From positions 1-64,000 of the IMG/VR virus record IMGVR_UViG_3300007541_000020: a stretch of DNA of 64,000 nt, one strand, 5' to 3'. The stretch's first letter is position 1. Every line of letters begins with the position of its first letter. This document shows, piece after piece, positions 12,001-62,636 of this stretch. A model generated the notes under the pieces. That model worked only from the letters and a program-made list of their open reading frames with translations. It did no database searches and was not told the DNA's origin. Both the position numbers and the translations under genes were made by a program. The stretch comes from a virus.

Positions 12001-13743
12001 AACAATTCTATTACTACTCCGTGTATAGAAGGAGCACAAATAAAAAATCTTAAGTATTTTACAATCAATGATGACAATTTGTCGCCCGAGGCACTTTTGG
12101 GATCCAAATTGGACATGGTTTCCAAACTCGAAGAACTTCATACCAACTTAAATAAGCCTTCTAGTATAAATATAGAAGATAGATATTGGTATAAAATCTT
12201 GAGACCTCACTTGCGTGGAGATAAATCATGGGGGATTGATACAAATTCGTTTATATTTGGTTCTACAACAGTGTATAGAGGTACTCCCCCAGTATACGTA
12301 GATGGTAAAGCAACATATCCATATCAGCCTGAAATGGGGCAACTTTATAAACATAGTAAAGATGCTTATGGATATATAAGTGGTTATGCTTATTATAATT
12401 ACCTGGGCCTAGTTATTATGGATGCTGGTCCACTAAATTTTTATAGTGGAGATTGGAGCAAAGGCGATGTAGTTTGGATGGGAATGTCAGTTGCAGAAGA
12501 TATAGATGAAAGTGGAGAACTTTACATTGAAGGATCAAATCTTCCTGGGGGAAAAATTATTCTCAAAAAGAAAGGCTCTGCAGATGCGGTTTCTCATGGA
12601 GGGCAAACCTACACATATACTACAATAGCCCCAGAGGTTGAACATAGTCTTTCTAATTACAATTATAATTGGACCAATCCTAATAATCGAAGATTTAGAT
12701 TTACCAATCAATTTATAAAAATGGATTTCGATTTACAAGATGATGTAGAGCTCAAATGCGATTATACGCATTATCAAAATAAATCATTAACTCAGATCAT
12801 TGATGAGTTGCCAAAAAAGTATTATAAAGACGGAGAATACTATTATGATTTTGAAAAAGCTAGAAAAATGATGCCGTTTTTATTATACAGAATGATCTGT
12901 ACAGATCAACTACATTCAGCAAGAGGTAGTCAAGAAAGCAACAGTGATACTGGCATTCCAACTGAGGCAGCCATGCTTACAAATCAAAAAACAATGAGAT
13001 CATTTGGTACGATCTGTGCCTCTGAGTTTTCTTCTTTAGAAAATTTAGATATGTCTAGTGTTAAGGCTAGATATGCTGGAATTCATAACCTTTCAGCTCA
13101 TGGAATAAATCTTAAAAAGGGTGTAGATTTGGACATTGGTTGGATGAAATATTTGCCTAAATTCGGAGGTAATCCAGCATATAATAGGAGAATGGGTCAT
13201 CCTTTAACTTTTAATATAGATTGTTATGTAAATTCTCAATCTACATTTTTAGATTGGATGGAATCTTTTGAGAAATTAAAAGATAGTGAAATAGAGATGC
13301 CGTCTTGGTTTTTAGGATTCAGGAATAAAGCCTATACCGACAAATTTTACGATTTCATGAGTACTGCTGGCACAGTACAGGGATACTCTAGCTATTCGAA
13401 TACTGCGTGGAGCAAATCGCTTTTCTTTCTTTCAGATTTTGAGAATGGAGACAATGTTCAAATTCCTTTACCTAATCATTTAAATGTTACAATTACAAAT
13501 TATGATTTTGTTAGCGAGAGGGGTGCGGGATATAAATATTCTTTGCTCTTCAATTATGAACCAATTATTTTGAAATCTTTTATGGATAATGATTCTTGGC
13601 CAAATTCTCTAGACTACATAAAAGATGCAAGAAATAAATTAGGAATATCTAGTTCGTATACTGTTTCCAGGCCGATCTTGAATCCTGGCCATGCTACGGT
13701 ACATTACTATGGTTGGGCCACTCGATTGCTGTTCCAAAAATAA
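1..13743 (+). CDS. Giant mosaic virion or fibre protein, 5' end missing
   Basis: The frame is open from the first base, so the gene begins outside the window; at least 4580 residues are visible. A TTG at 91 is only an internal codon. Visible pieces in order: a trypsin-like protease remnant (Asp in DAALIAI at 82-84, GRSSG near 286-300, GDSGS with Ser at 544-546); a cupredoxin-like domain with His at 2320 and C-x2-H-x2-M at 2527-2547; BspA/DUF285-like leucine-rich repeats around 3340-4500; a Ca-binding thrombospondin-3-like loop at 7375-7401; a PKD-like domain around 7690-7985 with WGDGD; and more LRR-like sequence around 11880-12150. Such domains are typical of adhesins and phage fibres. It sits directly upstream of the portal gene. 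Exact role is unknown; a fibre or head/tail appendage is my inference. Arginine is mainly AGA/AGG, as in most of the window. Confidence 0.75.
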   Translation: MVKKSVPLGIIGTDTSADLFTAEDVACDAALIAIKASKVNIDSWKLAGDDANPLMNQAAKFMDADDFSFFLEDSIAYNYISDVGGGKKDEPLMVFSGRSSGFHNSHENNNRIRNLGPAYGVKVAYSQGGVIKYLWIRGAFVIADQDWDLRYSTTLDNIEDPENSQVSEGSLFCQNTIMSGDSGSVIYAYTNTFVRNSDGSPHKLIVPQDEAILKELNRTADVNGKWTKTLTEVMQDLGIGATTSHTYYDFGPHVAQKVDTSSLSESSVLAALKAQTLDPDGNKGTEKHWRIAGQAFAAEIVTQQIINEEGEDEIIQYSTRGFCQPMHRIANLLNIKEWDGNLNNVNYNVREDNSYVESLVFSKGLSDVYNISLNQKNYYQAGGIAKAEGREYTAAIEAKTNLTKSNYPFDETMPPLSEWMTFDSFDIEVAEGGSVQSGLNNPRKYPIWLKLNNLSIDLSKLPEEVLRMPTGAMHMDAVLMDANAVFNVEDWYTDTKLSGMPDQGLFYHGENSTTKAYASWRIFSRAGEIASKDTVSKSYPLYLKEFDGKTKFKGYQIKFPLGGGIGYNFDLDQNSQTYSFNKEKTGLSVYFQYLPWTISGNSISFNATPGDIESWLGTKPLKLVFVLWKNDTFDAGTSTRIGRSVNFRRKTQSYLIQTTAIADDITSADLVSYTPGLQESDDKLSRYESLDLAQRKLRILFDSDHLGGPNPNKGIKDSNGLNVGNKFKCQQIKLSESAGKYTYKFETTPIATKGFQELMPGAVLTIDWSDAPDHPVGISTTNDGTHGGGDLYSEVEIDLATKTTKCYFKMADTLGGENYSPDPQNPGLKEFRTTTKLDFYVYCTNHPGMGFPLQFIDIQDGHKELYINSWMPKKIFLPINHVGPGGATILWNSLDRSSDVLPVVNLEPNTKFSARQMYWTANAAGFSSYNGWRHPYNPWRDNWSLESSDANLAKCLAYGDCEDLQEGERTIYVDDADLEIDDDYYTNQVKFNLHGRGWEANDKVNDLTYSLDNQWIILEENKIQRGDVFEVVVLGDVKSFGLHEDWFNENNELKSFSRNKDKWAKNYLAAYKSSFSFGIKNISYPSWIDCKWYHTFDGSSIDTISGLNKPISNPSVMVNTFANLVNILDHRSFNIALSDFSNAEIMEQIFANSRISSDLQKIVFDSNYQITNGIAENLAELAERSGCQLEIKQANLAKYNAKFDEFAIVERALDPTDTTVIFAESSVDFEVGVEIRFLKDKTFENGDIITAGSVVGISAYTEGSLNFQINYLEAARNISTSELDDLYEFVNGDKPVLYFNGTSLPTLDLQQRLLAAGVVAHIGRSSSLGKIKDLTKYFAGQTVNSEDLNYLIRLINQRGIDKNADFTKFCYNANVPNLDLSSIQLESPDFTKMFQGSIISGLKLPKVLNSAYSVKDMFESSTITANLDLEGIVDVGTKSVESCFYNTTTSFPIDITSWKFSEIKLFEYMDEFIINSYLNDFKVSQVSKTILLNSADFWFKSLNITNVRKVGRSTYRTYEDTTNGLYIPYEDDTEWNNFNQILVAFGEEDITDPDFFMKPAGKIYASWFEMDHSPNYNTWSWRNDGGQDSYDFNGSWDVGKSLIVNLPYDDNDTNYDDAISGFGYFSYEEEENEWNHLNGIPTNTYSTRSTHLRLNQETDKFEIVNAYKNIVTVISDAGNYTGGFNGTFSPTPDLFQDGKGIQKYITQTNGLEVFTSHIKMELSDGNIDDPTPLDVYRLSFFVHLGKYYNSESKLFSYNKYKGAYGKFPLVIFKFEKRSADFTEAEKLEIYNYIETLNIKDYAVSPTNPRYAITNKTYANQSPFLFGPKIADKYLTISEQLSDTGDAGRPARFHSKNVSLGEGGGGDVEVYDVKTKSYPYNLLSENKLTEKDEVHIPVPFVEYNNWNHATQYDHSYPLMLRWQGVEEDIHLRFLGNYIQQMGGNPMFDFSIKNKNVKSEPAQIYIIADGTEVLGERYYITDGSQVQAIELEEQNILILVLGIEVLDVNAVESNQITQRLEAWVDDMLTITQPFPEMDPSYFDIDYSNLENTLRDAINSTNNFEIFFAGWNVTNRQQVSLTLFYPKWSADFNAGTSPLSSLSLYKDADRTIPADSVMNYVIGGSTQYLIRLYYKWSYSYDTQDFVRPGSLIVLDSSTANITYTTNTTNNSTTTITPSNICMVVKVDKDNIYFVKTGDTVDVGGDSINYGVHDNNDFSGFAFKAPNAGMSPTVDLIITGGTAEEPTYARHLEYPSLPRGERNTTFHKITPRIMHVDQSWTSVTNRGWEENKLYFTAQKTNGETSDGVIVFHPIREGEDEGKLIDKYPIGETEKLLGVKGTYALYIDGDDFKDTEFYQAELESEYESVIDIPAIDSSKYEEYPAPKSNLGHYKGGFGSKWVIMSYDPLQDGFTKIRGKYTEGNDEVLSSAPFQKFNHIIGLVPNGEYNDPYDPGTDSFRDSLDSDFDGYPDIIDPAPFDQSVPGNTIITLEYYDSGEYQNAYASFGLGSYKGEFATSSRMDSDVHTINMFNDDPSNITQMYNWNAGTNQVTIALVAGDLELQEDWENMALPSPTSEVEYIQTNDGFGIPNGVSINWGDGDVTDANVNNADSYVEETKELNEQIGPRDSWKYNGTYRIYFFKHIYQDAGDKTVTITGPLKHFTIMADDIGQIGTDERDNARYLGLVSKNLLNNSEYLNWTESNFRIKGMSVIGGADTLSLGSPFYSIFPRDFFDSDRDEVIEAHVDEISWISEPILYQHARPSVWTLPSDITFRSYIWETNWGGTSQEGVSNDYIDQTWHANNYKFSSYFINDLGVPAGLTNNQWRETFYQGEISDSAITLPTPLPIMTSLLSTYPYGSEADRYSNGDLQSIWVKNQSHLPQSDFFDWDESSAVVAGDMIGCLGQELSLTPQILIDNISDNNEEFLEKIKDAVGSGNTHNLETEFGYLYYEMHIDRNKKAPDGILKDENGQTTNTMTALGLESATETDYIDFDGTQTNGTYLAYGNQQFLSDLKYHYFKESDKTLKSVDHKYDRFRVLWLPSIGDQEKITVTLTGDGTSNVATLFEAAAASQVYENSDIKSTVPSQISGHNPLFSVPVIYSSIILPSDWTWELELKIDLYLNEKHMFKTRKLINGNHVETKTCPSETWIVLERNNTEITVVPNNLKSIFNKNESHLKNDSLHQRVMTQTEGLNSTAFAGQDQFYNLLESHERSSNEDYGHATDGSFVLNHDISSLPLVHLLSSHNHTDFRQWNNTSSNPISNFVTWNDNPVLLNNIHYISFGYGLLNWFNETRSAPTRDTEISALAWNKLKADGNVPSSLSYSYESIGYADSTTYQAGEHPLNGSFEGLIRNDLNLGKKIVKYHNYGNPHTGFGVFFNQTRKEVVDWSWGSYTAQNKHIDGTTNHIATNYFSSVGMFEPILTSRHTAGLRNRFVPNSKVYNEIQNPFFDPSILSEDKIVVARAEIIQPSYSWQDPPSEWADVSATLKYLDIIDRYKNEEGVMKLLEDAHAAGVYFDGRRSKIDSSPYVRLGGGHQFTFKDLIKDASIETKPQLIKITKTWTGTGTEPVDYGASQIAVPLGLIEGGSKIVLGILQQDVAAGLIINDGVIGSYHLTNNLFNLTPSMRRTNWDVYDPSYYLHLDGISVIVVFNVSDRGDIWEVYKEDLYEWNVSYIDSKKPLKLKLKLSERGSFWEKTKPKHHDPEITNTNQTRKYFGLDCSQSMKVLAPTLSASNRYNENEYIQDYTWSNVSADLSSITLPAKSSNNDGDQAHFTMNYMISAGQGNLIPAGAFNSYGCNDMVTLKDELRSNNPIPFRSNSYTFSSLGYNKRNDGYLYNYPFEQRIFIGYQGLNFNGAAGYNNIKTGLPPFFVGRFPARKISELQGTSVIFRCQSASETGKFVQKPLSIVERISHKNQIAIGASNKNSLNTNYNDYNLSNFSESLMFFADDLSNPSNSGIGSGLNKKNKVEYVDLSKMVIFNGASRMLGGFFNNLIIDDIDLSSIDITNNSITTPCIEGAQIKNLKYFTINDDNLSPEALLGSKLDMVSKLEELHTNLNKPSSINIEDRYWYKILRPHLRGDKSWGIDTNSFIFGSTTVYRGTPPVYVDGKATYPYQPEMGQLYKHSKDAYGYISGYAYYNYLGLVIMDAGPLNFYSGDWSKGDVVWMGMSVAEDIDESGELYIEGSNLPGGKIILKKKGSADAVSHGGQTYTYTTIAPEVEHSLSNYNYNWTNPNNRRFRFTNQFIKMDFDLQDDVELKCDYTHYQNKSLTQIIDELPKKYYKDGEYYYDFEKARKMMPFLLYRMICTDQLHSARGSQESNSDTGIPTEAAMLTNQKTMRSFGTICASEFSSLENLDMSSVKARYAGIHNLSAHGINLKKGVDLDIGWMKYLPKFGGNPAYNRRMGHPLTFNIDCYVNSQSTFLDWMESFEKLKDSEIEMPSWFLGFRNKAYTDKFYDFMSTAGTVQGYSSYSNTAWSKSLFFLSDFENGDNVQIPLPNHLNVTITNYDFVSERGAGYKYSLLFNYEPIILKSFMDNDSWPNSLDYIKDARNKLGISSSYTVSRPILNPGHATVHYYGWATRLLFQK

Positions 13744-19716: not shown

Positions 19717-20306
19717 CCTATCAATTCGATTCCTCTATAAATGAATATGGGAATCTGGCTTCTGGAATATTTTTATACGATTTTGATGAAGAATACTCAG
19801 TAATTAGGCCAGAGTATATATCTGGCTGGCTTGATAACAATATTGGCGAATTAAATGTATTAATTCACAAATGCTACGAAGGTGGTAGTCCTGGATTAGG
19901 CAACGAAGAGCAAGCGATTTACAGGCAATTATTTTTAAAATCTTTTTATGGCAAACTAGCTAGAAAAACATTAATGGGTGTTTCTGTTACTGAAACTATT
20001 CCAGTAGAAGGCAGTACATACAATCCAACAATGTCAGATTGGATAGAGCTAAGAGAAGGTGATAGCTACATAAAAAGACAAGTAACTACAGCAAGCCCTT
20101 CCACAAAGGTTTCTGCGTCTAAACAATATTCATCATATGCACAAGAGGCAGAACTAACTTTGAAAGATTTAATATTCAAATATAATAATAATATTGCATT
20201 TCCAAGACAAGTTGTTCCTGGTTTCAGTTATGCAGAAGCTAGCGAAAAAAAACAAGATGTGGGATATCCTGGAGTGGGATATCCTGGAGTTGGGTATCCT
20301 TCTTAA
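19713..20306 (+). CDS. Putative head-tail connector protein
   Basis: A 197-residue protein placed where siphoviruses encode the adaptor (gp6-like) that links portal to tail. The first 110 residues look mostly helical (SGWLDNNIGELNVLIHKC, then FLKSFYGKLARKTLMG), compatible with a connector subunit, but no signature motif is visible. The extreme C terminus is a short GYPGV repeat encoded by a 15-base tandem repeat. It is translationally coupled to the upstream SAP-like gene and converges tail-to-tail with the minus-strand island, overlapping it by four bases. Confidence 0.5.
   Translation: MTYQFDSSINEYGNLASGIFLYDFDEEYSVIRPEYISGWLDNNIGELNVLIHKCYEGGSPGLGNEEQAIYRQLFLKSFYGKLARKTLMGVSVTETIPVEGSTYNPTMSDWIELREGDSYIKRQVTTASPSTKVSASKQYSSYAQEAELTLKDLIFKYNNNIAFPRQVVPGFSYAEASEKKQDVGYPGVGYPGVGYPS
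20259..20303 (+). repeat. 15-bp tandem repeat coding for GYPGV
   Basis: Two identical 15-base units (20259-20273, 20274-20288) and a third diverged unit (20289-20303) encode three repeats of the VGYPG type at the very end of the connector protein. In-frame units of this sort can expand or contract by slippage without disrupting the frame. Confidence 0.9.
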
Positions 20307-21304
20307 AGCCCTTGCATTTTTATTAAATCATCCATAGTTAAAGATCCACCTTTTTTTGCTGCAGCTTGATGCAGGGAAGGTTTCTTAATAGAAAGTTCTT
20401 CACTAGAAATGCCTAGGTCATTATAATCAGATTCACTTGCCCCAAAAACAGTTGATGCCCCTTCTTTTTGTAAGTTTTCTTTAGCTTTTTCTCTTGATTT
20501 AGATTCAGAACTATATGCTAGCAATTTTTCAGGATCTTTTCTAACATCTTCTGGTATATCTGGATGTTGGTCTATAATATTTTTAAAAACTTTTTGATAG
20601 AGACATAAAATCAATTGATTGCTGGTTAGATCAATTAATGGTTTTCCGAATACATCTTTAGGGTTATCGCTTACATACATATAAGGAATAAAAAAATCTT
20701 GAAGTATAATTGATTGTATATTCTTTTCAGAAAAAATATACACAAAAGAATTATTTATTTTGGTAAGATCTGAAATTGCGCTTCTAGGGAGATCTTCAAA
20801 TTCATCTTTTCTGAAAAATTTATGCGTCAATAAAGGATCTTTGTAGAGTATATTATATATAAATCTTTCTCCAGCAACTTTATTAGAATAAATTTCTGAT
20901 GTTTCACCTATTAAGGCTTCGAGTATATCCTTTTTTTTATTTAAAAAATTTAATTCTTCATCAATTAAATTCTGTATCTTTTCTTTTTCTGATTTGATTA
21001 TTAACTCATTCTTTGTTTTACTTAAAGAATTTATATAATTTTCTTGACTTAATATAAAAGCATCATCTTTTTCAAGCCATTCTCCAGATTCAATTAAGGT
21101 TTTTTTTCTAGATTCTCGCGAGGGAATCCCTCGTTTTTGAGCATCAATATTTAGTTTATTTACGGTCTCTTCAAAATATAAAAGGTCTCCGTCTTTTACA
21201 TGTTTTATGAAAACATCTTTTTTTTTATAATTTACTATTGTATAACCTTGACATACGTCCCTGAAAATTTTCTTAAAGAAATTTTTGTCAGAATCATCAT
21301 ACAT
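20303..21304 (-). CDS. Hypothetical protein, possible tail assembly chaperone partner
   Basis: A 333-residue acidic, largely helical protein without recognised enzyme motifs. A middle section (about residues 90-140) is a likely coiled coil rich in Lys/Glu. The C-terminal third contains PDIPEDVRKDPEKLLAYS, then a low-complexity stretch, and ends in a short helix (MDDLIKMQGL). It is the last of three minus-strand genes; its ATG overlaps the preceding stop by eight bases, so the two are translationally coupled. The tail module lacks the usual G/GT chaperone genes between tube and tape measure, so this pair may replace them. That role is inferred from context alone. Confidence 0.5.
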   Translation of the reverse strand: MYDDSDKNFFKKIFRDVCQGYTIVNYKKKDVFIKHVKDGDLLYFEETVNKLNIDAQKRGIPSRESRKKTLIESGEWLEKDDAFILSQENYINSLSKTKNELIIKSEKEKIQNLIDEELNFLNKKKDILEALIGETSEIYSNKVAGERFIYNILYKDPLLTHKFFRKDEFEDLPRSAISDLTKINNSFVYIFSEKNIQSIILQDFFIPYMYVSDNPKDVFGKPLIDLTSNQLILCLYQKVFKNIIDQHPDIPEDVRKDPEKLLAYSSESKSREKAKENLQKEGASTVFGASESDYNDLGISSEELSIKKPSLHQAAAKKGGSLTMDDLIKMQGL

Positions 21305-22058
21305 TTCCAGAATCTATATCTTCGCTAATCTTATCAAAATCTTCTCTGGAGACATTGGTACTGAAGTACCAAAAACTTATAAGCGTTGCTATTTTATCTT
21401 TTACGAGATCGAATATTTCGTGACCGTTTTCGTCTAAATCATAATATTGATCGATTTTATCAACAGATTCAACTTCGTCAAAAAAAGGAATGATTTCATC
21501 TTGTTCTGATTCTTGATAAAAAGAAAGATGGACAAGATACCAAATTAGAACCTTGTTTTGTGCCTTTGTGTCTGCTGTATGATTAAAAAGAGATGAATAA
21601 CTGGTTTCCATATCCACTATATCTCTCCTTAGGCTTGCCATCTCTCCAAGAAGGTTTTCAAGTTTTTTTTCATCTTGTTTGTTTTTTTTGGGCTGAGATG
21701 AGAGTCTGGAGTACTTATTTTGAATAGAGCCTAGTTCTGCGTAAGATTTAGTTAGGAGTTTTGCATCATCTTCGGACAGTAATCCTCCTGAGTCGCTGTA
21801 TTTTTTTGCTAACATAGCTTTTGTTAAAATGCCTCTTTTGATACACTTGCTCATTTCTATACTATATTCAATGTCAGCTTCTTCAAGATCTCTTCGACTG
21901 GGATCTTTTATGATTATCTTATAAGGAACTGGAGTTTTCACTACCTCTGTGACAGTGTATTCTTCCACTTTTCCAGTCTTTGGATTCTTTTTCTTTTTGA
22001 CAATATCCTGTTCTATTTCTTTATCGATATCAACACTAAAACTATATAATTCTTTCAT
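21297..22058 (-). CDS. Hypothetical protein, possible tail assembly chaperone
   Basis: A 253-residue acidic protein. After a Lys-rich N-terminal hairpin (IVKKKKNPKTGKVEEY) comes PSRRDLEEADIEYSIEMSK with GILTKAMLAKKYSDSGG, a segment style I associate with conserved proteins of uncertain function in large tailed phages. Residues about 95-150 are predicted coiled coil, and the C terminus is strongly acidic. It lies in the minus-strand island between head connector and tail completion genes and is coupled to the next gene by an 8-base overlap. A chaperone that coats the tape measure protein would fit the size, acidity and location, but no motif proves it. Confidence 0.5.
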   Translation of the reverse strand: MKELYSFSVDIDKEIEQDIVKKKKNPKTGKVEEYTVTEVVKTPVPYKIIIKDPSRRDLEEADIEYSIEMSKCIKRGILTKAMLAKKYSDSGGLLSEDDAKLLTKSYAELGSIQNKYSRLSSQPKKNKQDEKKLENLLGEMASLRRDIVDMETSYSSLFNHTADTKAQNKVLIWYLVHLSFYQESEQDEIIPFFDEVESVDKIDQYYDLDENGHEIFDLVKDKIATLISFWYFSTNVSREDFDKISEDIDSGNV

Positions 22059-52403: not shown

Positions 52404-53033
52404 TCATGTTTTGTAAATGTACCAGATGCGTTTGCCTGATGTTAATATTTCAAAATTAAAATCCTGAGATATTCTTTTAAGTGCGTTTGGTAAACCAAAT
52501 ATTGTTCGATCATCACCAAAAATAACTCCGCCTTTGTTTAAGATAGAATAATAATTTTTAATATCTTGATAGGCGTCCTCCTCTAAGTGAGAGCCGTCAA
52601 TATATATTAGATCAGGATTGATTTTCTTATACTTTAAAATTTCAAAACCGATTACACTTGTATTAGGTATTGGTTGTATTAAATCTTGTGCATTATTATG
52701 TACCACATTGCTTAAAAACTGATAATATACTTGAGGGAAGCCATGTAAACAATTAAGGTCACGCTCGGGCGTGTGAGAATGATATGTCCAAAACTCTTCA
52801 GCTCCCAGCCACGTATCAATACAATAAATCTTATTACAATTTAAATTATTGTTTTTGCAAATATTTGCCATGTTGATTGCTGATGCGCCTAACCAAGTTC
52901 CGACCTCAACAATTAAGTTGGGATTTATTTCTAATAAAATTTTCTTAAAAAATGGATCGTTTGAGCCCCAGCCAGAAAGTTTTTCAGGCAATGGCTTAAA
53001 ATTTTTGTATATATCTTGGTTGATTTGATTCAT
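52404..53033 (-). CDS. Class I SAM methyltransferase, family 24-like
   Basis: A 209-residue protein with a Rossmann-type SAM fold: motif I is IVEVGTWLGASAINMA (residues about 41-56), followed by IYCIDTW at strand two and the late DLIYIDGSHLEEDAYQDI with GGVIFGDD. This pattern fits the small Methyltransf_24/cephalosporin-hydroxylase-like group, often linked to glycan or lipid gene clusters. It is the last gene of the minus-strand sugar operon, overlapping the mutase gene by four bases, so it probably O-methylates a sugar of the same product. The substrate is not evident. Confidence 0.8.
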   Translation of the reverse strand: MNQINQDIYKNFKPLPEKLSGWGSNDPFFKKILLEINPNLIVEVGTWLGASAINMANICKNNNLNCNKIYCIDTWLGAEEFWTYHSHTPERDLNCLHGFPQVYYQFLSNVVHNNAQDLIQPIPNTSVIGFEILKYKKINPDLIYIDGSHLEEDAYQDIKNYYSILNKGGVIFGDDRTIFGLPNALKRISQDFNFEILTSGKRIWYIYKT

Positions 53034-54025
53034 GTTAATTTATTAATAGCTTGTTTTATAGTGACCCACATATCCATGTATTGATATGTAGCTAGACGAC
53101 CTAAGAAAATTACATTATTTTCTGATCGGATAGATTTTTTATATTTTTTATAAATTTCTTGACCCTCTCCAAAATTTTTGGGGTATATTGGTTCGTTTGT
53201 TTCATCGTGTTCTTCTGGGTAATCCCGCGTTAAAATTGTATGATCTTCTTGCTGGTTTAAAAAAACACTGTTATCAACTGTCCTATTGTATTTTATAGTT
53301 TTATCTTCGCATTCATTGATTTGAGCTCCAGAATCAAAAGAAAATAAATCAGTTCTTTTAGTTTTAAAATGTTTAAATTTAAGAGATCTATAGGGTAATT
53401 TTCCAAATTTCAAATCAAAGAATTCATCTGGTTTGCCAGTATATATCATTTTATCACATTTTAATTTTTTGTACTCATTCCTTGATACTCCCAAATTAAC
53501 CTTAATACCATTTAACATATTATTCATCATGTCTGTATAACCTTTATGAGGTATACCTTGATACTTATCGAGTGAATACCTGTCATCAAATGATTCCCTG
53601 CGGGTTGGTACTCTTGAGGAAATAGATTTGGGCAATTTATCCCAAGCGATGCCCCAATGTCTCTCAGAATAATTAATAAATATAGAATCATAAATTTCTT
53701 TATCTGTGAGTTTTTTTCCTATTTGCTGTTCTGTTAACTTGCTGTATGGAATGTTAATCATTCCATACTTTGTATTAGCCCTAACTCTCAAACTATGATT
53801 GTTAAATTTTGTATATCTATTTAAAAAATTCCATACTTGCTCATCGTTTGTATGAAAACAATGTAGCCCATATTTGTGAACTTTAATGCCTTCCATGTCT
53901 TCATCATAACAATTTCCGCCAATATGATTGCGAATATCAAATATTTCAACATTATGCCCTTGGCTTTTTAAAATATTTGCTGATGTTATGCCTGATAGTC
54001 CGCAGCCTATTATATTAATTTTCAT
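53030..54025 (-). CDS. glf: UDP-galactopyranose mutase
   Basis: A 331-residue flavoenzyme converting UDP-galactopyranose to UDP-galactofuranose. The N terminus has the FAD motif (INIIGCGLSGITSANILK) and HIGGNCYD. Family signatures follow: HKYGLHCFHTND (residues about 51-62), WGIAWDKLP with SSRVPTR, and GIPHKGYTDMMNNML. The C terminus has FLGRLATYQYMDMW, which binds flavin and substrate. At 331 residues it is a little shorter than typical bacterial enzymes (about 370). It overlaps both neighbours by four bases and lies between glycosyltransferase-type genes and a methyltransferase, supplying galactofuranose donor. This is one of the firmest assignments in the window. Confidence 0.93.
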   Translation of the reverse strand: MKINIIGCGLSGITSANILKSQGHNVEIFDIRNHIGGNCYDEDMEGIKVHKYGLHCFHTNDEQVWNFLNRYTKFNNHSLRVRANTKYGMINIPYSKLTEQQIGKKLTDKEIYDSIFINYSERHWGIAWDKLPKSISSRVPTRRESFDDRYSLDKYQGIPHKGYTDMMNNMLNGIKVNLGVSRNEYKKLKCDKMIYTGKPDEFFDLKFGKLPYRSLKFKHFKTKRTDLFSFDSGAQINECEDKTIKYNRTVDNSVFLNQQEDHTILTRDYPEEHDETNEPIYPKNFGEGQEIYKKYKKSIRSENNVIFLGRLATYQYMDMWVTIKQAINKLT

Positions 54026-54801
54026 TTAATTTTTTTGATATCATGAAGTAATGTTTCATATTTAGAATAAGTTCTTATCTTAGAATTTGAAAATTTACTA
54101 TACCAAAGATTAAAAGTGTTATGTTGTACTTCCCCTCCTTTGATTGCATATATGTAATTAAATCCACCAGTAAAACTTGATAGTATACTACCACCACCTT
54201 GAACCGATATTTTACCTATGGATTTAGATCCTAAGATTAATTGCAGTTCGTTAAATGAATAATTTTCTTGTAATTCATTTATATCAATTACATTAGGAAA
54301 ATTTTTAGAAATCAAATCGTAATCTCCTAAATCGAACAAAATACTATTGTCTTTGGGGATTTTATCTCCCCTGGGTCTATTATAGATTAAAGAAAAATGG
54401 GGGCTTAATATTTTAAAAATCTCAGAAAGAGTATTCAAGTCAAGAAAATTGACTGGCTCTGAACCCCATTCAGTATTGTACTTGTTGTTGACTATTAATA
54501 CATCTTTTTCAAAAGAATTTTTTAATTTTTTATTTTTAAAGTGCGATTTATAGTCTGGGAAAATTTCATTTTTAAGAGCTGGAACATGTATATCTCCGTA
54601 GAAATTATTCGTTTTCTCTGTCCTTTTTGTGTACTTTTCTATAACACAATCTTCTGGCAAAAAGTAATAAAAGCATCGCATGCCTTGATTTGTTATTACT
54701 GTAACTTTATCATTGTTTAAGTAGTGCTTATATACAAGAGGGACAATCAAAATAAGTTCATACCCAAATTCTGGCGCATAAGTATCTACAATTAATTCCA
54801 T
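54022..54801 (-). CDS. Unassigned protein of the sugar operon, possible glycosyltransferase
   Basis: A 259-residue protein with alternating beta/alpha sequence. The start EFGYELILIVPLVYKHYL and the later KISVQGGGSILSSFTGG resemble parts of GT-B-type transferases or of pyruvyl/fucosyl-transferase-like enzymes, where a Gly-rich turn near the C terminus binds the donor. No complete family signature is seen. It overlaps the mutase gene by four bases and has a weak ribosome site. Given that every other operon member handles sugars, a transferase acting on the galactofuranose-containing glycan is plausible. Confidence 0.55.
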   Translation of the reverse strand: MELIVDTYAPEFGYELILIVPLVYKHYLNNDKVTVITNQGMRCFYYFLPEDCVIEKYTKRTEKTNNFYGDIHVPALKNEIFPDYKSHFKNKKLKNSFEKDVLIVNNKYNTEWGSEPVNFLDLNTLSEIFKILSPHFSLIYNRPRGDKIPKDNSILFDLGDYDLISKNFPNVIDINELQENYSFNELQLILGSKSIGKISVQGGGSILSSFTGGFNYIYAIKGGEVQHNTFNLWYSKFSNSKIRTYSKYETLLHDIKKIK

Positions 54802-54819
54802 TTGAATTGAGTGTTATTT

Positions 54820-56442
54820 TTATGTATTATATAATATTTTTTCGAGTGTACAACTGAAGCTTGAGGCACTGTGAACATTTCTTTGATACCAATCGTAACA
54901 GTTTTTAGACATAATATTCCACTCGTTTTTGTTTATAGATTTTATTTTTTCTAATAATTCATCTTTGGAGTTTATGCTGATATAATGTTTATTTTCAATC
55001 AAGGGTTCAATATAAGAATTAACATTAACTTCTTTTGTTATAATAGGAACTGTTCCGAATGCCATTAATTCTACTTCCCTGTGACACTTACTTCCATAGC
55101 CACGTAGACATAGGCCATATTTTGAATTACGCAATTTCATGAGATACTCTTCCTGGGTAAATTTATGTTCATGACCTGCCGTACAATGGTATTCCGTAAG
55201 CACCGAGCTCCAGTCAGTTCCAGTGTTTCTGTATATTGATTGCACGTTGTTTTCGTAATTTCCTATAAATATACTTTCTATTTCCCTCTCTTCGTAAGAT
55301 AAGATTTCTTTTTCTCTCAATATTCTTTCTAACACTTTGGGCCTTCTGGGCCAAAAAATCCATGGAATCACATTTAGGTTATTTCTTTTTAGCATTTCCC
55401 CTTCTTTGTTGACGTCTCCATTTCCTAATAATATTAAACTTGAACTCAATAATTCATCATCAAACCATTCTTTTGTTGGCCTATCGTATAGTAATATATG
55501 ATCCCCTATCCAGCAGTGACCGCTACTAGACAGTTCAATATCAATGGATTCGTTATTGTCTTTGTATAGAAGGGCCAATTCCCTAAAACTATCATTGGTA
55601 TGATTCCATATACCTTGCTGTGGTTGACTTGGAATTTTTATATTCCATTTTTTGTTAACAATTCTATCGATTATTAACAACTCTTTATAGCGCTTTAACT
55701 TAATAAGTAAACTAAGGAAAATTTCGTTTATTCGAAGGAATCTAGGGTCTTCAAAGTGTGTGTGTAGAAATATTAAAGGTTTATTGTTTATCGTAATTTC
55801 TTTTTTATTGATACCTATCGAGCTCGCTGTCTTACGTGGGTTTTCAGATAATATTATTCTCCAAGGCATAAAGTTTATTTCTTCACCAAATTCTGAATAT
55901 CTATATTTTTTTGCCAAGTCTTCGATGGATGCCTGGTCATGATATCTTGAGGTTTTTGTGAATTCTATCCAGTCATTTGCAATGTTTTTATTTTTTGTCC
56001 ACAAACATCCGCCATTGTAATAACCAACTTCATCTGTATTTATTTTTTTAATATAATGTGGAGATAGTCCAAGGTCCTTTGTTTTGTCTACTGATGTGAT
56101 GGGATTTAGGAATAATATATCGCTATCTAAAAACATTGTGTCGTCTTCATTTTCTAAGGCGTATTTTATTACATTAGCTTTTTGCATCTGAAATTCATCC
56201 CATATTTTTTCTTGGACCATTGTAGCTCTATTTTTACCACTATATTTATCCAGTGTGGTTTTTAAAAATAACTGCAATTGAATTCGGGGAATAAAATTAT
56301 TTATTAAATCGTGTGTTTCGGAGTCTATCAGTCCATATACTTTTGAATTATTATGATGTATGGATAAACTCAATAACATTCCAATCAATTCATTACTGGA
56401 ATTATATGTAGATATAAAACAAAAACTATTAGGCTCTGACAT
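54820..56442 (-). CDS. Two-domain glycosyltransferase, GT-A plus exostosin-like
   Basis: A 540-residue protein with two likely catalytic units. The N-terminal half is GT-A-like: FCFISTYNSSNEL, the metal-binding D106-S-D108 (MFLDSDILFLNP), and YNGGCLWTKN about 35 residues further. The C-terminal part (about residues 440-500) matches the exostosin/GT47 donor-binding region: KYGLCLRGYGSKCHREVELM followed by AFGTVPIITKEV. Such fusions make alternating glycan units in other systems. The frame extends two codons upstream with a TTG at 56448; the ATG at 56442 is preferred. The next upstream gene ends 15 bases away, so it is operonic. Confidence 0.75.
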   Translation of the reverse strand: MSEPNSFCFISTYNSSNELIGMLLSLSIHHNNSKVYGLIDSETHDLINNFIPRIQLQLFLKTTLDKYSGKNRATMVQEKIWDEFQMQKANVIKYALENEDDTMFLDSDILFLNPITSVDKTKDLGLSPHYIKKINTDEVGYYNGGCLWTKNKNIANDWIEFTKTSRYHDQASIEDLAKKYRYSEFGEEINFMPWRIILSENPRKTASSIGINKKEITINNKPLIFLHTHFEDPRFLRINEIFLSLLIKLKRYKELLIIDRIVNKKWNIKIPSQPQQGIWNHTNDSFRELALLYKDNNESIDIELSSSGHCWIGDHILLYDRPTKEWFDDELLSSSLILLGNGDVNKEGEMLKRNNLNVIPWIFWPRRPKVLERILREKEILSYEEREIESIFIGNYENNVQSIYRNTGTDWSSVLTEYHCTAGHEHKFTQEEYLMKLRNSKYGLCLRGYGSKCHREVELMAFGTVPIITKEVNVNSYIEPLIENKHYISINSKDELLEKIKSINKNEWNIMSKNCYDWYQRNVHSASSFSCTLEKILYNT

Positions 56443-56457
56443 AATCAATTAATATGG

Positions 56458-57417
56458 TTATAATAATATGTTTATTAAAGTGGCCGTGTATTCAAGTATA
56501 TTATTATAAGTTAATACATTTTTTACAAAATCTTTATTATTTTCTATTATTTGCAAAGAAAATTCTTCATTAATTTCTAATTTATCATGAATGATTCTTA
56601 ATTCATCCTCTTTATTGTATTTTATATAATTAATTCCATCTTTTAATAAATAACTATAAAATTCTTCATATGGGCTATTTTTTTTTATAATTACAGAATT
56701 TACATTCAACAGTAATTTCATTCTGTCGCTTAATGTATTGCCATCATTATAAATGATATATTTATATTTAAAATGCTCATTGAAGAAATGAAAATTCTCC
56801 CCAGCTAGATTTTTAGATTTTAATTTTTCAATTAAACCTTTTTTCAGATCTTTGTATTCGTGAACCGATCCTCCGTAAATATGCCCATCTATAATATCTT
56901 CATTTTCCAAACCATATATAAAATAATTTATTTTAGAAAGATGAGCTATACAATTTGTATAAAATTTATTTATTTTTTTATTAAAAGGATATTGATCATG
57001 CAAGCCCTTCATATAATTCGTTTCTTCATCATAATTTTTAAATTTATCAATATACCAATATTCATCTAAATTTATATCACTTAATGCAAATCTAAAATCG
57101 GGAAAGAGAAAGTGTTTTTCATTGATTTTTCTGCAAAAATTGAAGCATCCTTGTTTGGGTGAATCATTTAAATTTATATTAATATTTCCATCTTTCACTT
57201 CATGTTTTAGTAAAACATTGCTCACTAGAGCTATATATTGTTTTTTCCTAACTGGATGAATCCACCCAAGACCTTCTATTATGTTGAAAATGCTATTATC
57301 TTTTACTTGTATTACTATTGATTCATTTAATTTTTTATCACATTTTTTATATTTATCCTTAAAGCTGGCTTGATGTTCAATGATTTCATGAAAAAAATTT
57401 TTATTATTATTCGTCAT
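56458..57417 (-). CDS. GT90/CAP10-like glycosyltransferase
   Basis: A 319-residue protein. The C-terminal half has the GT90 (CAP10, POGLUT) pattern: FPDFRFALSDI, then YKYIIYNDGNTLSDRMKLLL, directly followed by NSVIIKKNSPYEEFYSYLL and DGINYIKY. In that family the D-G-x-x-x-S-x-R motif binds the nucleotide sugar and the next strand carries the hydrophobic 'sVhhK' segment. Bacterial and viral members add xylose or glucose to glycans or proteins. Codon use is extremely AT-rich, even for this window (many AAT, ATT, AAA). Confidence 0.7.
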   Translation of the reverse strand: MTNNNKNFFHEIIEHQASFKDKYKKCDKKLNESIVIQVKDNSIFNIIEGLGWIHPVRKKQYIALVSNVLLKHEVKDGNININLNDSPKQGCFNFCRKINEKHFLFPDFRFALSDINLDEYWYIDKFKNYDEETNYMKGLHDQYPFNKKINKFYTNCIAHLSKINYFIYGLENEDIIDGHIYGGSVHEYKDLKKGLIEKLKSKNLAGENFHFFNEHFKYKYIIYNDGNTLSDRMKLLLNVNSVIIKKNSPYEEFYSYLLKDGINYIKYNKEDELRIIHDKLEINEEFSLQIIENNKDFVKNVLTYNNILEYTATLINILL

Positions 57418-57457
57418 GTTTTTTAAAAGTTATATTTAAGTTTTTATTGCTTAATAT

Positions 57458-58144
57458 TCAGTGGGAGTATTTGTTTTGTATTTCCCTGTCTTCTTTCTGG
57501 GCTAAATGTATTTTTTCTTTGGAAATAGAATCAGGTCTGTCAAGAAAACAACCCACTATTTCAGGTATTTTTTTAAACTTAAAATTACTTTTTGATAATT
57601 TTAACCACATATCATAATCTCCGCTTGATACATATTTTTCGCTAAAATATCCAACTTTTTCAATTGCAGATTTTTTTACCAGAGGGAAAGGGCCGCATAT
57701 ACACCTAGTGAGTAATACTTCGTGACTGTAGTTTGGCCAAATTAATATATTTGATGGTGATTCAAAGCCTTGATTTTTTGATGTAAAACAGGGGCCGTAG
57801 AATAAATCTATATCTGAATATTTGCGAGCATAGTCTTCGTAAGTTTTAATAGCGGAAGGGAACAAAGAATCATCAGTGTTCCAGTTTAAGACATATTTTC
57901 CAGTTGAGTTTTTAATTGCTAAATTCCATGCTTCGTATATTGTAAGATTTTTATTTTGGGATATTATTTTTGTTTTAATGTTTTCTTTAAATTTAAAATT
58001 ACTTATTATTTCTAATGATTTATCTTGCGAGTTGGCGTCAACAAAAACAATCTCAAAGCATTCGGAAAACTGAGAGTTGATCATATCTAAATAAAGATCT
58101 AGATATTTTTCAGAATTATATACTGAACTGATTATTGATATCAT
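57458..58144 (-). CDS. Family 2 glycosyltransferase
   Basis: A 228-residue GT-A enzyme of the GT2 family. It begins MISIISSVYNSEKYLD, with FVDANSQDKSLEI at residues 34-46 and the metal/donor-binding N-T-D-D at 89-92 (LNWNTDDSLFPSA). A later conserved part is SSGDYDMWLKLSKSNFKF near residue 170. It overlaps the GT4-like gene by four bases, so they are co-translated. The 40-base gap to the next gene has no obvious terminator. The acceptor is unknown, but it presumably extends the glycan built by this operon. Confidence 0.88.
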   Translation of the reverse strand: MISIISSVYNSEKYLDLYLDMINSQFSECFEIVFVDANSQDKSLEIISNFKFKENIKTKIISQNKNLTIYEAWNLAIKNSTGKYVLNWNTDDSLFPSAIKTYEDYARKYSDIDLFYGPCFTSKNQGFESPSNILIWPNYSHEVLLTRCICGPFPLVKKSAIEKVGYFSEKYVSSGDYDMWLKLSKSNFKFKKIPEIVGCFLDRPDSISKEKIHLAQKEDREIQNKYSH

Positions 58145-58998
58145 AATTTATTTTCTATCTTTTTCCAAAAATTGGATTTAGCTAAAGAACATTCTTTTGA
58201 GAAATTCTTTAATCCATTTTTTTTGTATTCTAGGTAAGATCCTATTCTTGACATATCTCCATGAAAATCATTTATTCCGCACATGATTGATTCACCTATC
58301 ATCCTACAAAAAGGTTCGTTAACCAAGGGGTGGTGGAAAACCCCAATGGAACTTTGGTATATTTCTGCTATTTCTTTTTGGTCTACCTTTCCGTGAAATC
58401 TTATATTATCAATGTTTTTAAAATTTTGTTCTATTCCGTTTTCAGACCAACCAAAAATGTCAAATTTTCTATCACTGTTATTCTTGGCATATTCAATTAA
58501 ATTATTAAAGCCTTTTAATGGATGAAGGAAACCGCAATATATTATATCGTATATTTTATCTTTGTTTTTGTCAATATTAAAAATAAATGAATCTATAGGG
58601 TCTGGTAAAAATTCTACATTTTCAAATATATTTCCATAAAATTCAGTAAAAAAAGACAGATGGAATTCAGAAAGAAAGAAGTTTATTTTGGATGAACGAA
58701 AAAGCTCTTCTCTTACTGATTCAGTAAGATAACTGCATGAGTCATGCTCGAGCCTTACATGAAAATCATGATTACTTATATAATCTATTTTTTCTGGAGA
58801 TAATTGATTAATTGCCTCGAGGTTAGAACTTACCACTACATCAAAAGACTGTAAAAAATCAACTGGCGAGCTGTCGAAATTATGCAAAATAATATCGTAC
58901 CCCATCTTTTCCCCCTCTTTAATTATTTCATCATTACTAACTTGAGCTCCGCCAGAATTATGCTTTAGCCCAAAATCAGAAATGAATAAAACTTTCAC
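58141..58998 (-). CDS. GT4-like glycosyltransferase, GTG start
   Basis: A 285-residue GT-B enzyme. The N terminus MKVLFISDFGLKHNSGGAQV is the classic first strand plus Gly-loop; the second domain has IYDIIYCGFLHPLKGFNNLI, RKFDIFGWSENG and a donor-site segment around FHHPLVNEPFCRMIGESIMCG, with the E-x7-E glutamates E240-type region degenerate but recognisable. Length is short for the family (about 350-400). The start is GTG at 58998; an in-frame TGA directly precedes it, so no earlier start exists. It is the first gene of the minus-strand sugar operon. Confidence 0.8.
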   Translation of the reverse strand: MKVLFISDFGLKHNSGGAQVSNDEIIKEGEKMGYDIILHNFDSSPVDFLQSFDVVVSSNLEAINQLSPEKIDYISNHDFHVRLEHDSCSYLTESVREELFRSSKINFFLSEFHLSFFTEFYGNIFENVEFLPDPIDSFIFNIDKNKDKIYDIIYCGFLHPLKGFNNLIEYAKNNSDRKFDIFGWSENGIEQNFKNIDNIRFHGKVDQKEIAEIYQSSIGVFHHPLVNEPFCRMIGESIMCGINDFHGDMSRIGSYLEYKKNGLKNFSKECSLAKSNFWKKIENKL

Positions 58999-59175
58999 TC
59001 AATATGATTGAGCTTAATTAGGAAAATTCAATTTTTTTTTGAAAAAATTATTTCTTATATTATATTATATATATATATTATGGAAACATAATAATTTTTA
59101 TTAGTACTAATTATTATTTTTCTATAAATAAAAAAAAACTTGATTTTATTATTTTTTTTTGTTAAGATATGGGCT
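58999..59175. promoter_or_regulatory. AT-rich divergent intergenic region
   Basis: 177 bases separate the minus-strand sugar operon from the plus-strand nucleotide operon, the longest gap in the window. It is almost wholly A and T, with an alternating TATATATATA run near 59061-59080. Several TATAAT-like boxes face the minus strand, but I cannot choose one. The plus-strand promoter is listed separately. No gene or RNA structure was seen in the gap. Confidence 0.6.
59140..59168 (+). promoter_or_regulatory. Sigma70-like promoter for the nucleotide-gene operon
   Basis: TTGATT (59140-59145) and TAAGAT (59163-59168) with a 17-base spacer. The ATG at 59176 is seven bases past the -10 box, so a leaderless message is predicted. 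There is no GTGTATA element, which suggests early or middle expression by host sigma factor. Confidence 0.5.
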
Positions 59176-60001: not shown

Positions 60002-60543
60002 TAATAGGATTAACTGGCTTAGCTAGAAGTGGAAAAGATTCATTCTTTAATTTTGCAAAAAAATATTTGATCAAAAATGATTTAAAAATTAAAAGGTACG
60101 CATTTGCCGATGCTCTAAAAAAAGAATGTGAAGAATTTATATATAAAAACACAGGGATTTCTGTTTTTACAGAAGATTCTTATGAAAAAAGTTTGATAAG
60201 ACCAACTTTGGTTGCGTACGGAACTCATTTAAGGAGAATGATTGATCCAGATTGCTGGATTAAGAAAATATCAAAATTAGTTGAAGAAGATAATTCGAAA
60301 AATTATATTATTTTCATAACAGATGTAAGATACCCAAATGAACTTAATTGGATTAAGTCAATCGGCGGATCAATTATACATATTTCAAAAGAAGGAAACT
60401 CATGCCCCAATTTAGAGGAGAATGAAAACGATCCAATTTTAAAAAAACTTTCTTCGTTTAGTTTTTCTTGGGAACCCTTTGATAAAAACCCCAACGGAGA
60501 ACAATCCGTAAACTATTTTTTTGAAAAAAATTTTAAATTTTAA
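59998..60543 (+). CDS. Deoxynucleoside monophosphate kinase
   Basis: A 181-residue P-loop kinase similar to the T4 gp1-type dNMP kinases, which raise dNMPs to dNDPs for phage DNA synthesis. The Walker A loop is GLARSGKDS (residues 7-15). Later features are RYAFADALKKECEEF (lid/nucleotide-binding helix), GTHLRRMIDPDCWIKK and FITDVRYPNELNWIK, the typical DVRxxNE motif for this family. It is coupled to dUTPase by an ATGA overlap, so the two supply dTMP/dNDP precursors. The gene is followed after one base by the sigma factor gene. Confidence 0.88.
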   Translation: MIIGLTGLARSGKDSFFNFAKKYLIKNDLKIKRYAFADALKKECEEFIYKNTGISVFTEDSYEKSLIRPTLVAYGTHLRRMIDPDCWIKKISKLVEEDNSKNYIIFITDVRYPNELNWIKSIGGSIIHISKEGNSCPNLEENENDPILKKLSSFSFSWEPFDKNPNGEQSVNYFFEKNFKF

Positions 60544-60544
60544 A

Positions 60545-61135
60545 ATGAACTCTACAATTGATAAAAATGTAAGTGACGAACAGTTAATAAATAACATCAA
60601 AAACAATATTCTTTCATCAGAATCTCTTGATGTTTTATATGAAAAATACTCAAAAGTATATTATCAAATAATACATCATTATTTTAAGAATAATGATTGT
60701 AATGAAAAAAATGAATTAATAAAAGAGTGTAAATATAATATTTATTTCTGTGCTTTGGATTTTAAAAAAGAAAAAGGTGCAAAATTCTCTTCTTATTTAG
60801 GGAATAAAGCTAGATGGCTTTGCCTTACCTTTTTCAATAAAAATAAAAAAATTAAAACTATTGATGACTCAGAACTTCAAAACCAAGAAGACACTATATG
60901 CTTATACAGGCACATATCATCAAGAGAAACAATTCAAAATTTTTTAAATGAAGTAGAGAATGATCCAGATCACAGAATAAAAAAAATATTCAATTTAAGA
61001 TACTTTTCAAGTAAAACTAATAAACTTAGATGCTGGCGAGAAATAGCTGAGCAACTTGGATTAAGCGTTCAAGGCTGCATCAACATACATAACGATTACT
61101 TAAAAAAACAAAAATATACAAAATATGATAAATAA
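60545..61135 (+). CDS. Putative phage RNA polymerase sigma factor
   Basis: A 196-residue protein with a divergent sigma70-family layout. Residues about 5-40 form a region-2-like helix pair (SDEQLINNIKNNILSSESLD, then LYEKYSKVYYQII); a segment FSSYLGNKARWLCLTFFNK resembles the regions 2.2-2.4 used by sigma factors to bind core and melt DNA. The C-terminal region 4-like helix-turn-helix is CWREIAEQLGLSVQGCINIH. Regions 1.1 and 3 are missing, as in T4 gp55-type or ECF sigmas. The frame extends upstream to TTG at 60521 inside dNMP kinase; ATG at 60545, one base after that stop, is chosen. It could direct late transcription from the GTGTATA elements. Confidence 0.72.
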   Translation: MNSTIDKNVSDEQLINNIKNNILSSESLDVLYEKYSKVYYQIIHHYFKNNDCNEKNELIKECKYNIYFCALDFKKEKGAKFSSYLGNKARWLCLTFFNKNKKIKTIDDSELQNQEDTICLYRHISSRETIQNFLNEVENDPDHRIKKIFNLRYFSSKTNKLRCWREIAEQLGLSVQGCINIHNDYLKKQKYTKYDK

Positions 61136-61565: not shown

Positions 61566-62636
61566 ATGGAAAAAATTATTTTAAAAGCTCCGTTTAATTC
61601 TTTATCATTAGGAAATGTATCTTACAATATAGCAAGAGAGTTATATAAAAAGGGTATATCAACAAGTATTTTCCCCAAAGGAAATAATTTTGAATTCGAT
61701 GCTTTTGATAAATTAGATGAAGATTTTAAAAAATGGCTTGAAGGCTCCACTAATAATCGATTTTTAACAATCGACAAAGATACTCCTTGTCTTTCTATCT
61801 GGCACATAAATGACAGCCAAGACTCTATCGGAAGGAAGAGTTATCTATATACTTTTTACGAACTAAATAATCCTACAGATACTGAAAAAAACATCTGTAG
61901 ATTACATGAAAAAACAATCTTTAGTAGCTCTCACGCCTCGAACTGTTTTGAAAATTCTAGTTATGTCCCCCTCGGCTTTGATGAAGATTTTGCAAAAACC
62001 AACAAATCTTATTTAAAAGATAAAATTCATTTTGGCTTGATCGGCAAATGGGAAAAAAGAAAAAATACTGATAAGATAATAAAATATTGGGCTGAAAAAT
62101 ATGGTAATAATAATAATTATCAATTAACATGTTGCGTAATTAATCCATTTTTTAAAACAGAGGAAATGAATGCATTAATAGCAAACACCTTAGAAAACAA
62201 ACATTATTCGAATATAAATTTTTTGCCAAGATTAAAGACTAATTCTGAAATTAATGAATTATTAAATTCTATTGACATCGACTTATCTGGACTCAGCGGG
62301 GGAGAGGGCTGGAATTTACCATCATTTAATTCAACTTGTCTAGGTAAATGGAGTATAGTCATGAATCATACTGCCCATAAAGATTGGGCTAATGAACAAA
62401 ATTCTATTTTAGTTAATCCAACTTCTGAAGTTGATTCTGAGGACGGGGTTTTCTTTCAAAAAAATAGTTCCTATAACCAAGGCACTTTTTACTCAATATC
62501 CAAAGACGAAATAATATCTTTGTTTGAAAAATCAGAACTTTACAAAGATAAACCGAATCTTGAAGGAGAAAAATTAAAAGATAAATTTACATATCAAAAT
62601 ACATTAGATAGTATATTAAACATAATGAAGGAATAA
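61566..62636 (+). CDS. GT4-like glycosyltransferase
   Basis: A 356-residue GT-B enzyme. The N-terminal domain has MEKIILKAPFNSLSLGNVSY with the characteristic Gly-Asn turn; the second domain has FGLIGKWEKRKNTDKIIKYW, TCCVINPFF, then LNSIDIDLSGLSGGEGWNLP and STCLGKWSIVMNHTAHKDW. The G-E-G-W-N-L-P segment corresponds to the conserved donor-binding 'E-G-x-x-x-P' loop. It lies outside the minus-strand sugar operon and has its own sigma70-like promoter, so it may act on a different acceptor, or at a different time. Candidate targets are DNA, virion protein or a host glycan. Confidence 0.8.
   Translation: MEKIILKAPFNSLSLGNVSYNIARELYKKGISTSIFPKGNNFEFDAFDKLDEDFKKWLEGSTNNRFLTIDKDTPCLSIWHINDSQDSIGRKSYLYTFYELNNPTDTEKNICRLHEKTIFSSSHASNCFENSSYVPLGFDEDFAKTNKSYLKDKIHFGLIGKWEKRKNTDKIIKYWAEKYGNNNNYQLTCCVINPFFKTEEMNALIANTLENKHYSNINFLPRLKTNSEINELLNSIDIDLSGLSGGEGWNLPSFNSTCLGKWSIVMNHTAHKDWANEQNSILVNPTSEVDSEDGVFFQKNSSYNQGTFYSISKDEIISLFEKSELYKDKPNLEGEKLKDKFTYQNTLDSILNIMKE

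Follow-up and report, generated by a model that had tools for sequence, protein, structure and literature searches.

Which glycan would a phage build with its own UDP-galactopyranose mutase (UGM), and to what would that glycan be joined? This question is raised by seven co-directional genes on the minus strand (58998→52404) of the DNA analysed here, positions 1-64,000 of the IMG/VR virus record IMGVR_UViG_3300007541_000020. This whole stretch of 64,000 nucleotides is called the window; the record itself has 65,075 bases and may be a fragment. The original prediction described the genes as an operon for a galactofuranose (Galf)-containing, probably methylated glycan, with the virion, the phage DNA and the host surface as three open destinations. 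We consider it very probable that the operon works as a module for making a Galf glycan, whereas the full reading, in which the virion is the destination of the glycan, is in our estimate evenly poised between right and wrong. The seven open reading frames (ORFs) were confirmed as one co-directional run, listed here from the first gene to the last.

58141..58998, minus strand: GT4-type (GT-B fold) glycosyltransferase (GT), first gene, 285 amino acids (aa), GTG start; Pfam Glycos_transf_1, 1.8e-9, over the cut-off
57458..58144, minus strand: GT2 (GT-A fold) glycosyltransferase, 228 aa; Pfam Glycos_transf_2, 6.2e-17
56458..57417, minus strand: GT90 glycosyltransferase, 319 aa; Pfam GT90, 2.1e-14
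54820..56448, minus strand: probable two-domain glycosyltransferase, 542 aa; sub-threshold Pfam matches, GT47 relatives
54022..54801, minus strand: open reading frame for a 259-aa protein, no family match
53030..54025, minus strand: UGM, short form, 331 aa; Pfam GLF, 1.3e-49
52404..53033, minus strand: class I S-adenosylmethionine-dependent methyltransferase (MT), last gene, 209 aa; Methyltransf_24, 1.7e-16, and RMNT_CmcI, 1.2e-8

The UGM was examined for loss of its active site. It matched PF03275 (GLF) with 169 bits against a cut-off of 26.3, and its N-terminus matched NAD_binding_8 (1.5e-17), a Rossmann domain binding flavin adenine dinucleotide. Residues Y119, W124, R138, R248, Y316 and D318, mapped by hand from an alignment, correspond to Y151, W156, R170, R278, Y346 and D348 of the E. 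coli enzyme, which we take to have a catalytic role. All the checked residues are thus kept, and the six positions are invariant in 29 phage members. The AlphaFold model (pLDDT 94) is UGM-like and shares the flavin/Rossmann fold of E. coli Glf (1i8t; Foldseek TMq 0.92) at approximately 35% sequence identity. On the other hand, 1i8t is 36 residues longer (367 versus 331), has a longer domain-2 stretch and belongs to another clade. The stretch between two domain-2 motifs has 32-34 residues in 73 of 76 phage sequences, against 63-65 residues in 45 of the 51 cellular sequences measured; the short UGMs lack about 30 residues of domain 2. Inactivity owing to the length of 331 aa was rejected, since the residues and the predicted fold are those of an intact enzyme and the clade shares the shortening. 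The enzyme is predicted to interconvert UDP-galactopyranose and UDP-Galf. A UDP-N-acetylgalactosamine mutase activity like that of C. jejuni 4mo2 is also possible.

The UGM scan yielded one close relative, a 35.8-kb contig from another IMG/VR record (L002), which carries the operon at the same place; a similar operon in a related phage, which the prediction had suggested looking for, was thus found. The dN/dS values between the window and L002 were 0.067 for GT4, 0.092 for GT2, 0.092 for the 542-aa protein, 0.16 for the 259-aa protein, 0.051 for UGM and 0.058 for MT, resembling those of the dUTPase (0.043) and the tail fibre (0.155). Judged from these ratios, the six shared operon genes are under purifying selection, and with the operon in one position in both phages this goes well beyond chance. 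Because dN/dS was 0.05-0.16 for six genes, the order and position of the genes are the same in L002 and the upstream region is kept, the view of the operon as unrelated remnants, which the prediction had named as a refutation, or as an artefact was rejected as far as sequence can tell.

The middle of the operon differs between the two phages. Nucleotide similarity ends at the GT2 stop codon and returns where the 542-aa gene starts. The window has GT90 in this interval, and L002 has an FkbM-type methyltransferase (PF05050, 6.5e-11) and a 237-aa protein, joined by 4-base overlaps; no GT90 was found anywhere in the L002 contig. The 237-aa protein had looked fucosyltransferase-like by eye, and this idea was dropped when Pfam and PDB searches came up empty. 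With GT90 swapped between the window and L002, the core enzymes would be shared by the two phages but their glycans would differ. The exchange is known from one phage pair. Viral-contig searches with the tail fibre, the 259-aa protein and the 542-aa protein returned the L002 contig only, and homologs of the J-like protein described below belonged to distant phages in which the operon was absent from the stretch examined.

The phylogenetic position of the UGM was then considered. A scan with a diverse alignment detected at least 80 viral UGM loci at 40-67% identity; results from the viral collection refer to the best 80 loci, and the clade is thus sampled around the window. In a quick tree of 159 UGMs, with support by SH-aLRT only, the window enzyme, 79 viral sequences and one bacterial contig were grouped with an SH-aLRT value of 100 and a stem of 0.82, separate from both the cellular enzymes and the UGMs of cultured phages. 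No clade member was present in a collection of 50,697 phage records, where all matches were below 60% identity and the best among the matches listed was 37%. Similarly, there was no close member among 88 phage records with a UGM, which showed at most 40% identity in the aligned set. Among 932 cellular genomes of four phyla, a clade member was detected in only one, on an Opitutales contig (514 bits) whose genome was the centre of one cellular genome search; the others did not exceed 222 bits, and most of their matches were broken at the domain-2 insert. These results strongly support, at the level of sequence comparison, a phage-dominated clade of short UGMs that is almost confined to uncultivated phages. 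A recent host origin of the UGM was rejected, as 931 of the 932 cellular genomes sampled from the four phyla are without a clade member.

The exception, positions 131-1129 of contig L027, is a short phage-type UGM that is nested in the phage clade and lies on a contig of an Opitutales (Verrucomicrobiota) metagenome-assembled genome. A strictly viral clade was rejected because bacterial-looking genes lie beside this UGM; the gene may have passed from a phage to the bacterium, or its place there may come from binning or assembly.

The neighbours of the short UGMs were analyzed as well. The genes one or two places away from 53 non-redundant short UGMs numbered 202, of which 184 were on the UGM strand, and the 88 immediate same-strand neighbours included 12 epimerase/dehydratase-type, 6 Methyltransf_24, 6 GT2 and 5 GT90 proteins by Pfam. 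The family of the window MT thus stands directly beside the short UGM in other phages also. A GT90 profile matched nine of the 1563 ORFs of the 80 loci, and seven of the nine were the gene just upstream of UGM, in most cases with an overlap (naive probability ~2e-8, uncorrected for relatedness). The profile was built from UGM neighbours and the window gene, so that the count is biased towards these; an independent Pfam model confirms members of this set. The seven GT90-UGM loci represent at least two deep UGM groups with 41-48% identity between groups. The simplest explanation is that GT90 uses Galf, because it is kept beside the enzyme that makes this rare donor. GT90 may thus be a galactofuranosyltransferase, and its recurrent position makes it the best candidate. 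We know of no GT90 that takes a Galf donor. It is a tentative proposal, more doubtful than probable, that a widespread, phage-dominated lineage of short UGM, with GT90 as its dedicated partner, is the fixed centre of glycan islands in uncultivated phages, and that swaps of the other sugar genes give close relatives an antigen-like variation of the virion glycan.

Sulfotransferases (Sulfotransfer_2, for example L107 12362-13000) were common slightly beyond the immediate neighbours; their cluster has 50 members, which come from 25 of the 80 short-UGM loci. Their recurrence suggests that some short-UGM phage glycans are sulfated.

The remaining enzyme assignments of the operon were mostly in agreement with the prediction, in that UGM, MT, GT90, GT2 and GT4 all exceeded the Pfam cut-offs. 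GT90 scored 53.7 bits with Glyco_transf_90 against a curated cut-off of 24, its best PDB relative was POGLUT1 (E 4e-4), and its gene has the lowest GC content of the operon (22.8%). The GtrB-like PHROG phrog_841 matched GT2 weakly (2e-7), and no GT4 homolog was found among the phage records. The 542-aa protein has an N-terminal GT-A-like part with a DSD motif (FLDSDILFL) and a C-terminal GT47/exostosin-like part. Its predicted resemblance to GT-A and exostosin proteins held, the best solved relatives being the GT47 chlorovirus A075L entries (E 0.005), but it was below the Pfam cut-offs (Exostosin_GT47, 27.5 versus 33.4 bits; the GT-A-like Nucleotid_trans, E 0.0076). It is accordingly called GT47-like, and GT47 membership is not claimed. 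A genome scan gave no relative of the 542-aa protein, and stand-alone proteins resembling its C-terminal part occur in other phage loci. The 259-aa protein, probably an enzyme, had no Pfam, PDB, phage-record or cellular match (AlphaFold pLDDT 36) and was found in the window phage and L002 only. From its family, MT would act on a sugar. The seven products have no strongly hydrophobic segment (highest 19-residue Kyte-Doolittle mean, 1.22), and Pfam detected no flippase, polymerase or GtrA family among them. Adjacent genes overlap by 4 bases at three junctions (GT4/GT2, 259-aa/UGM and UGM/MT), one fewer than the four counted originally, and gaps of 40, 9 and 18 bases lie at the other three.

The setting of the operon bears on the destination of the glycan. 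Plus-strand lambda-like tail functions fill the left four fifths of the window; the last of these is a 2805-aa J-like protein, which adjoins an 1100-aa protein without a family match, named tail fibre by its position. The operon lies on the opposite strand between the tail fibre gene and a plus-strand nucleotide-metabolism group (dUTPase, deoxynucleoside monophosphate (dNMP) kinase, a sigma-like factor and a single-stranded DNA-binding protein). Two further features belong to this setting.

58999..59139, no strand assigned: AT-rich intergenic region that separates the operon (minus) from the divergent nucleotide-metabolism genes (plus)
61566..62636, plus strand: GT4-type glycosyltransferase outside the operon; phrog_2170, 3.3e-18

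The intergenic region showed a mean column identity of 95% over 171 columns with L002, and the compared genes showed 85-92% nucleotide identity; it is a probable promoter region by its sequence conservation. A promoter-like match (10 of 12) was present on the minus strand at 59086-59059, but such matches were no commoner than in shuffles and were dropped as evidence. Terminator-like sites exceeded the shuffles in number (7 versus 2.2) but were inside genes, and nothing was built on these. In five other phage loci, homologs of the outlying GT4-type gene lie no more than 12 genes from UGM, and this gene is a possible further member of the pathway.

On this basis, the following mechanism is proposed. 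UGM would convert UDP-galactopyranose of the host to UDP-Galf, and GT4, GT2, GT90 and the 542-aa GT-A/GT47-like protein would assemble an oligosaccharide in the cytoplasm, which the CmcI-like O-methyltransferase would cap. The glycan would then most likely be joined to virion proteins, for example the neighbouring large tail fibre and J-like proteins. A GT swap in the middle of the operon would give different glycans in close relatives, as in serotype variation, and the difference would alter the recognition or shielding of the particle. The enzyme specificities, the order of the steps, the virion as destination and the benefit in recognition or shielding are what we infer from gene content and setting. 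As biosynthetic potential, the predicted Galf-containing, probably methylated glycan is upheld by the enzyme families and the intact UGM.

Of the three destinations, the virion is favoured, the host surface is kept and DNA is disfavoured. The points on the side of the virion are the lack of a strongly hydrophobic segment, the adjacent tail fibre, the exchangeable sugars, the methyl cap and two precedents. In cluster O mycobacteriophages, an O-methyltransferase and three tandem GTs modify the capsid and the tail tube (Freeman et al. 2023, as described in PMC11600133). These resemble the window operon in combining tandem phage GTs with an O-methyltransferase, and their target is virion protein. 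The differences are that UGM is not mentioned in the passage of PMC11600133 on these genes and that the window phage has a lambda-like tail; none of these actinobacteriophages was matched by the sequences of the window MT, GT90, GT4 or 542-aa protein. The capsid glycans of chloroviruses are made largely by soluble viral GTs and bear terminal O-methyl groups (PMC9614988). PBCV-1, with A064R (GT-GT-methyltransferase), A061L and A075L, is similar in its mostly soluble, virus-encoded GTs and terminal O-methylation, and A075L (GT47) is the best solved relative of the C-terminal part of the 542-aa protein, a weak homology. However, PBCV-1 is a eukaryotic virus with an N-glycan on its major capsid protein, and Galf is not mentioned in that review (PMC9614988).

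Several points weigh against the virion reading. The virion link in this phage is the tail-fibre neighbour only, and the operon diverges from nucleotide-metabolism genes rather than from a virion operon. Soluble glycosyltransferases are equally compatible with lipid-linked or lipopolysaccharide (LPS)-core glycans, and substrate specificity is unreadable from these families. GT90 is absent in L002 while UGM is kept, and another Galf user is needed there. In some short-UGM islands, a gene for a tail fibre, a head-tail connector or a tail-sheath stabiliser is found within seven genes, but several others adjoin replication genes (SbcC/DNA polymerase, RecA-like). Therefore, position alone leaves the destination unfixed.

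These points leave room for remodelling of the host surface, in which the phage GTs, working in the cytoplasm, would extend the LPS core or the O-units by a Galf-containing methylated branch and so stop superinfection or the re-adsorption of progeny to debris; we regard this as rather unlikely, though it deserves serious weight. UGM, GT2, GT4 and methyltransferases are generally known as frequent members of O-antigen and capsule clusters in bacteria, O-antigen loci typically show cassette exchange too, and the relatives of the window GT2 are cellular GT2s beside cellular UGMs. The phage Gtr seroconversion cassettes have a likeness in the weak phrog_841 match of the window GT2, but the window has no GtrA flippase, membrane GT or recognised lysogeny gene. 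With no GtrC-like protein or polymerase either among its products, the operon would need to feed into a lipid-linked pathway of the host. Furthermore, T4-type connector genes occur in some short-UGM phages, and a lytic phage would gain less from seroconversion than a lysogen.

Hypermodification of phage DNA bases with a galactofuranosyl glycan, as a protection against restriction, is improbable. Phage GTs do glycosylate DNA in T4-like phages (PMC9614988, PMC12619734), and the window operon adjoins dUTPase and dNMP kinase genes. However, the thymidylate-synthase/hydroxymethylase family was absent from all 12 short-UGM records searched, which include five of 118-201 kb and the 65-kb record studied here and are all possibly fragments. 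Four GTs, one of them exchangeable, and a CmcI-like methyltransferase exceed the needs of base glycosylation, and the sulfotransferases and epimerases of sister islands better suit a surface glycan.

A candidate for the DNA type was noticed elsewhere, among the UGMs of cultured phages (Aeromonas Tulanevirus, Rhizobium/Agrobacterium, Lactobacillus ATCCB and S. suis). Like the window UGM these are phage-encoded, but they share at most 40% identity with it in the aligned set, cluster with cellular enzymes and, in six annotated records, have no comparable annotated multi-GT operon around UGM. In Lactobacillus phage ATCCB (L007 4028-7083), a thymidylate synthase, an annotated beta-glucosyltransferase and UGM stand in a row, a point in favour of DNA as destination; in contrast to the window, this row is a candidate for DNA hypermodification of the Galf type. 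Among T4-like phages of Aeromonas and Erwinia (L006 6001-8183 and L008 6001-8126), motA is directly followed by UGM and then by an uncharacterised gene for approximately 355 aa, whose product may use the Galf donor.

Auxiliary metabolic genes for the polysaccharide supply of the host, or a recent cassette without a fixed phage role, hold just as little probability, as two points in their favour, namely that a study of viral metatranscriptomes from Lake Baikal lists glf among the auxiliary metabolic genes (PMC9611531) and that the swapped GT90 has an unusually low GC, are opposed by strong purifying selection on six genes, the kept order and upstream region and the phage-dominated clade, which speak for long residence in phages.

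Other features of the window were recorded. The sigma-factor-like protein at 60521-61135 (phrog_351, 1.3e-5) might direct the expression of some genes in this phage. One continuous reading frame of 4550 aa, which Pfam did not match, extends from 91 to 13743, at the left end of the record and before the other tail-region genes. Two minus-strand genes (333 and 253 aa; 20303-22058) without PHROG or Pfam matches are inverted inside the plus-strand tail region, and their homologs are adjacent again in a distant phage (L014), beside a tape-measure homolog.

Phage UGMs have been described before, and so have phage operons with several GTs and the glycosylation of virions. As far as the searches reach, the phage-dominated clade of short UGMs, the recurrent GT90-UGM pair and the in-place cassette exchange within a phage glycan operon of close relatives are new, and no report of Galf as a phage-made decoration was found in the open-access literature. 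Phage-encoded glycosylation of virions has been demonstrated in few systems. Through its recurrent pairing with UGM, GT90 becomes a candidate galactofuranosyltransferase of a new class that can be put to the test, and the short UGM helps to mark the dispensable part of domain 2. If the proposed reading is true, uncultivated phages in large number would produce a sugar donor which is missing in many hosts, and the exchange of whole GT genes at a fixed site would be their way of varying the glycan made from it.

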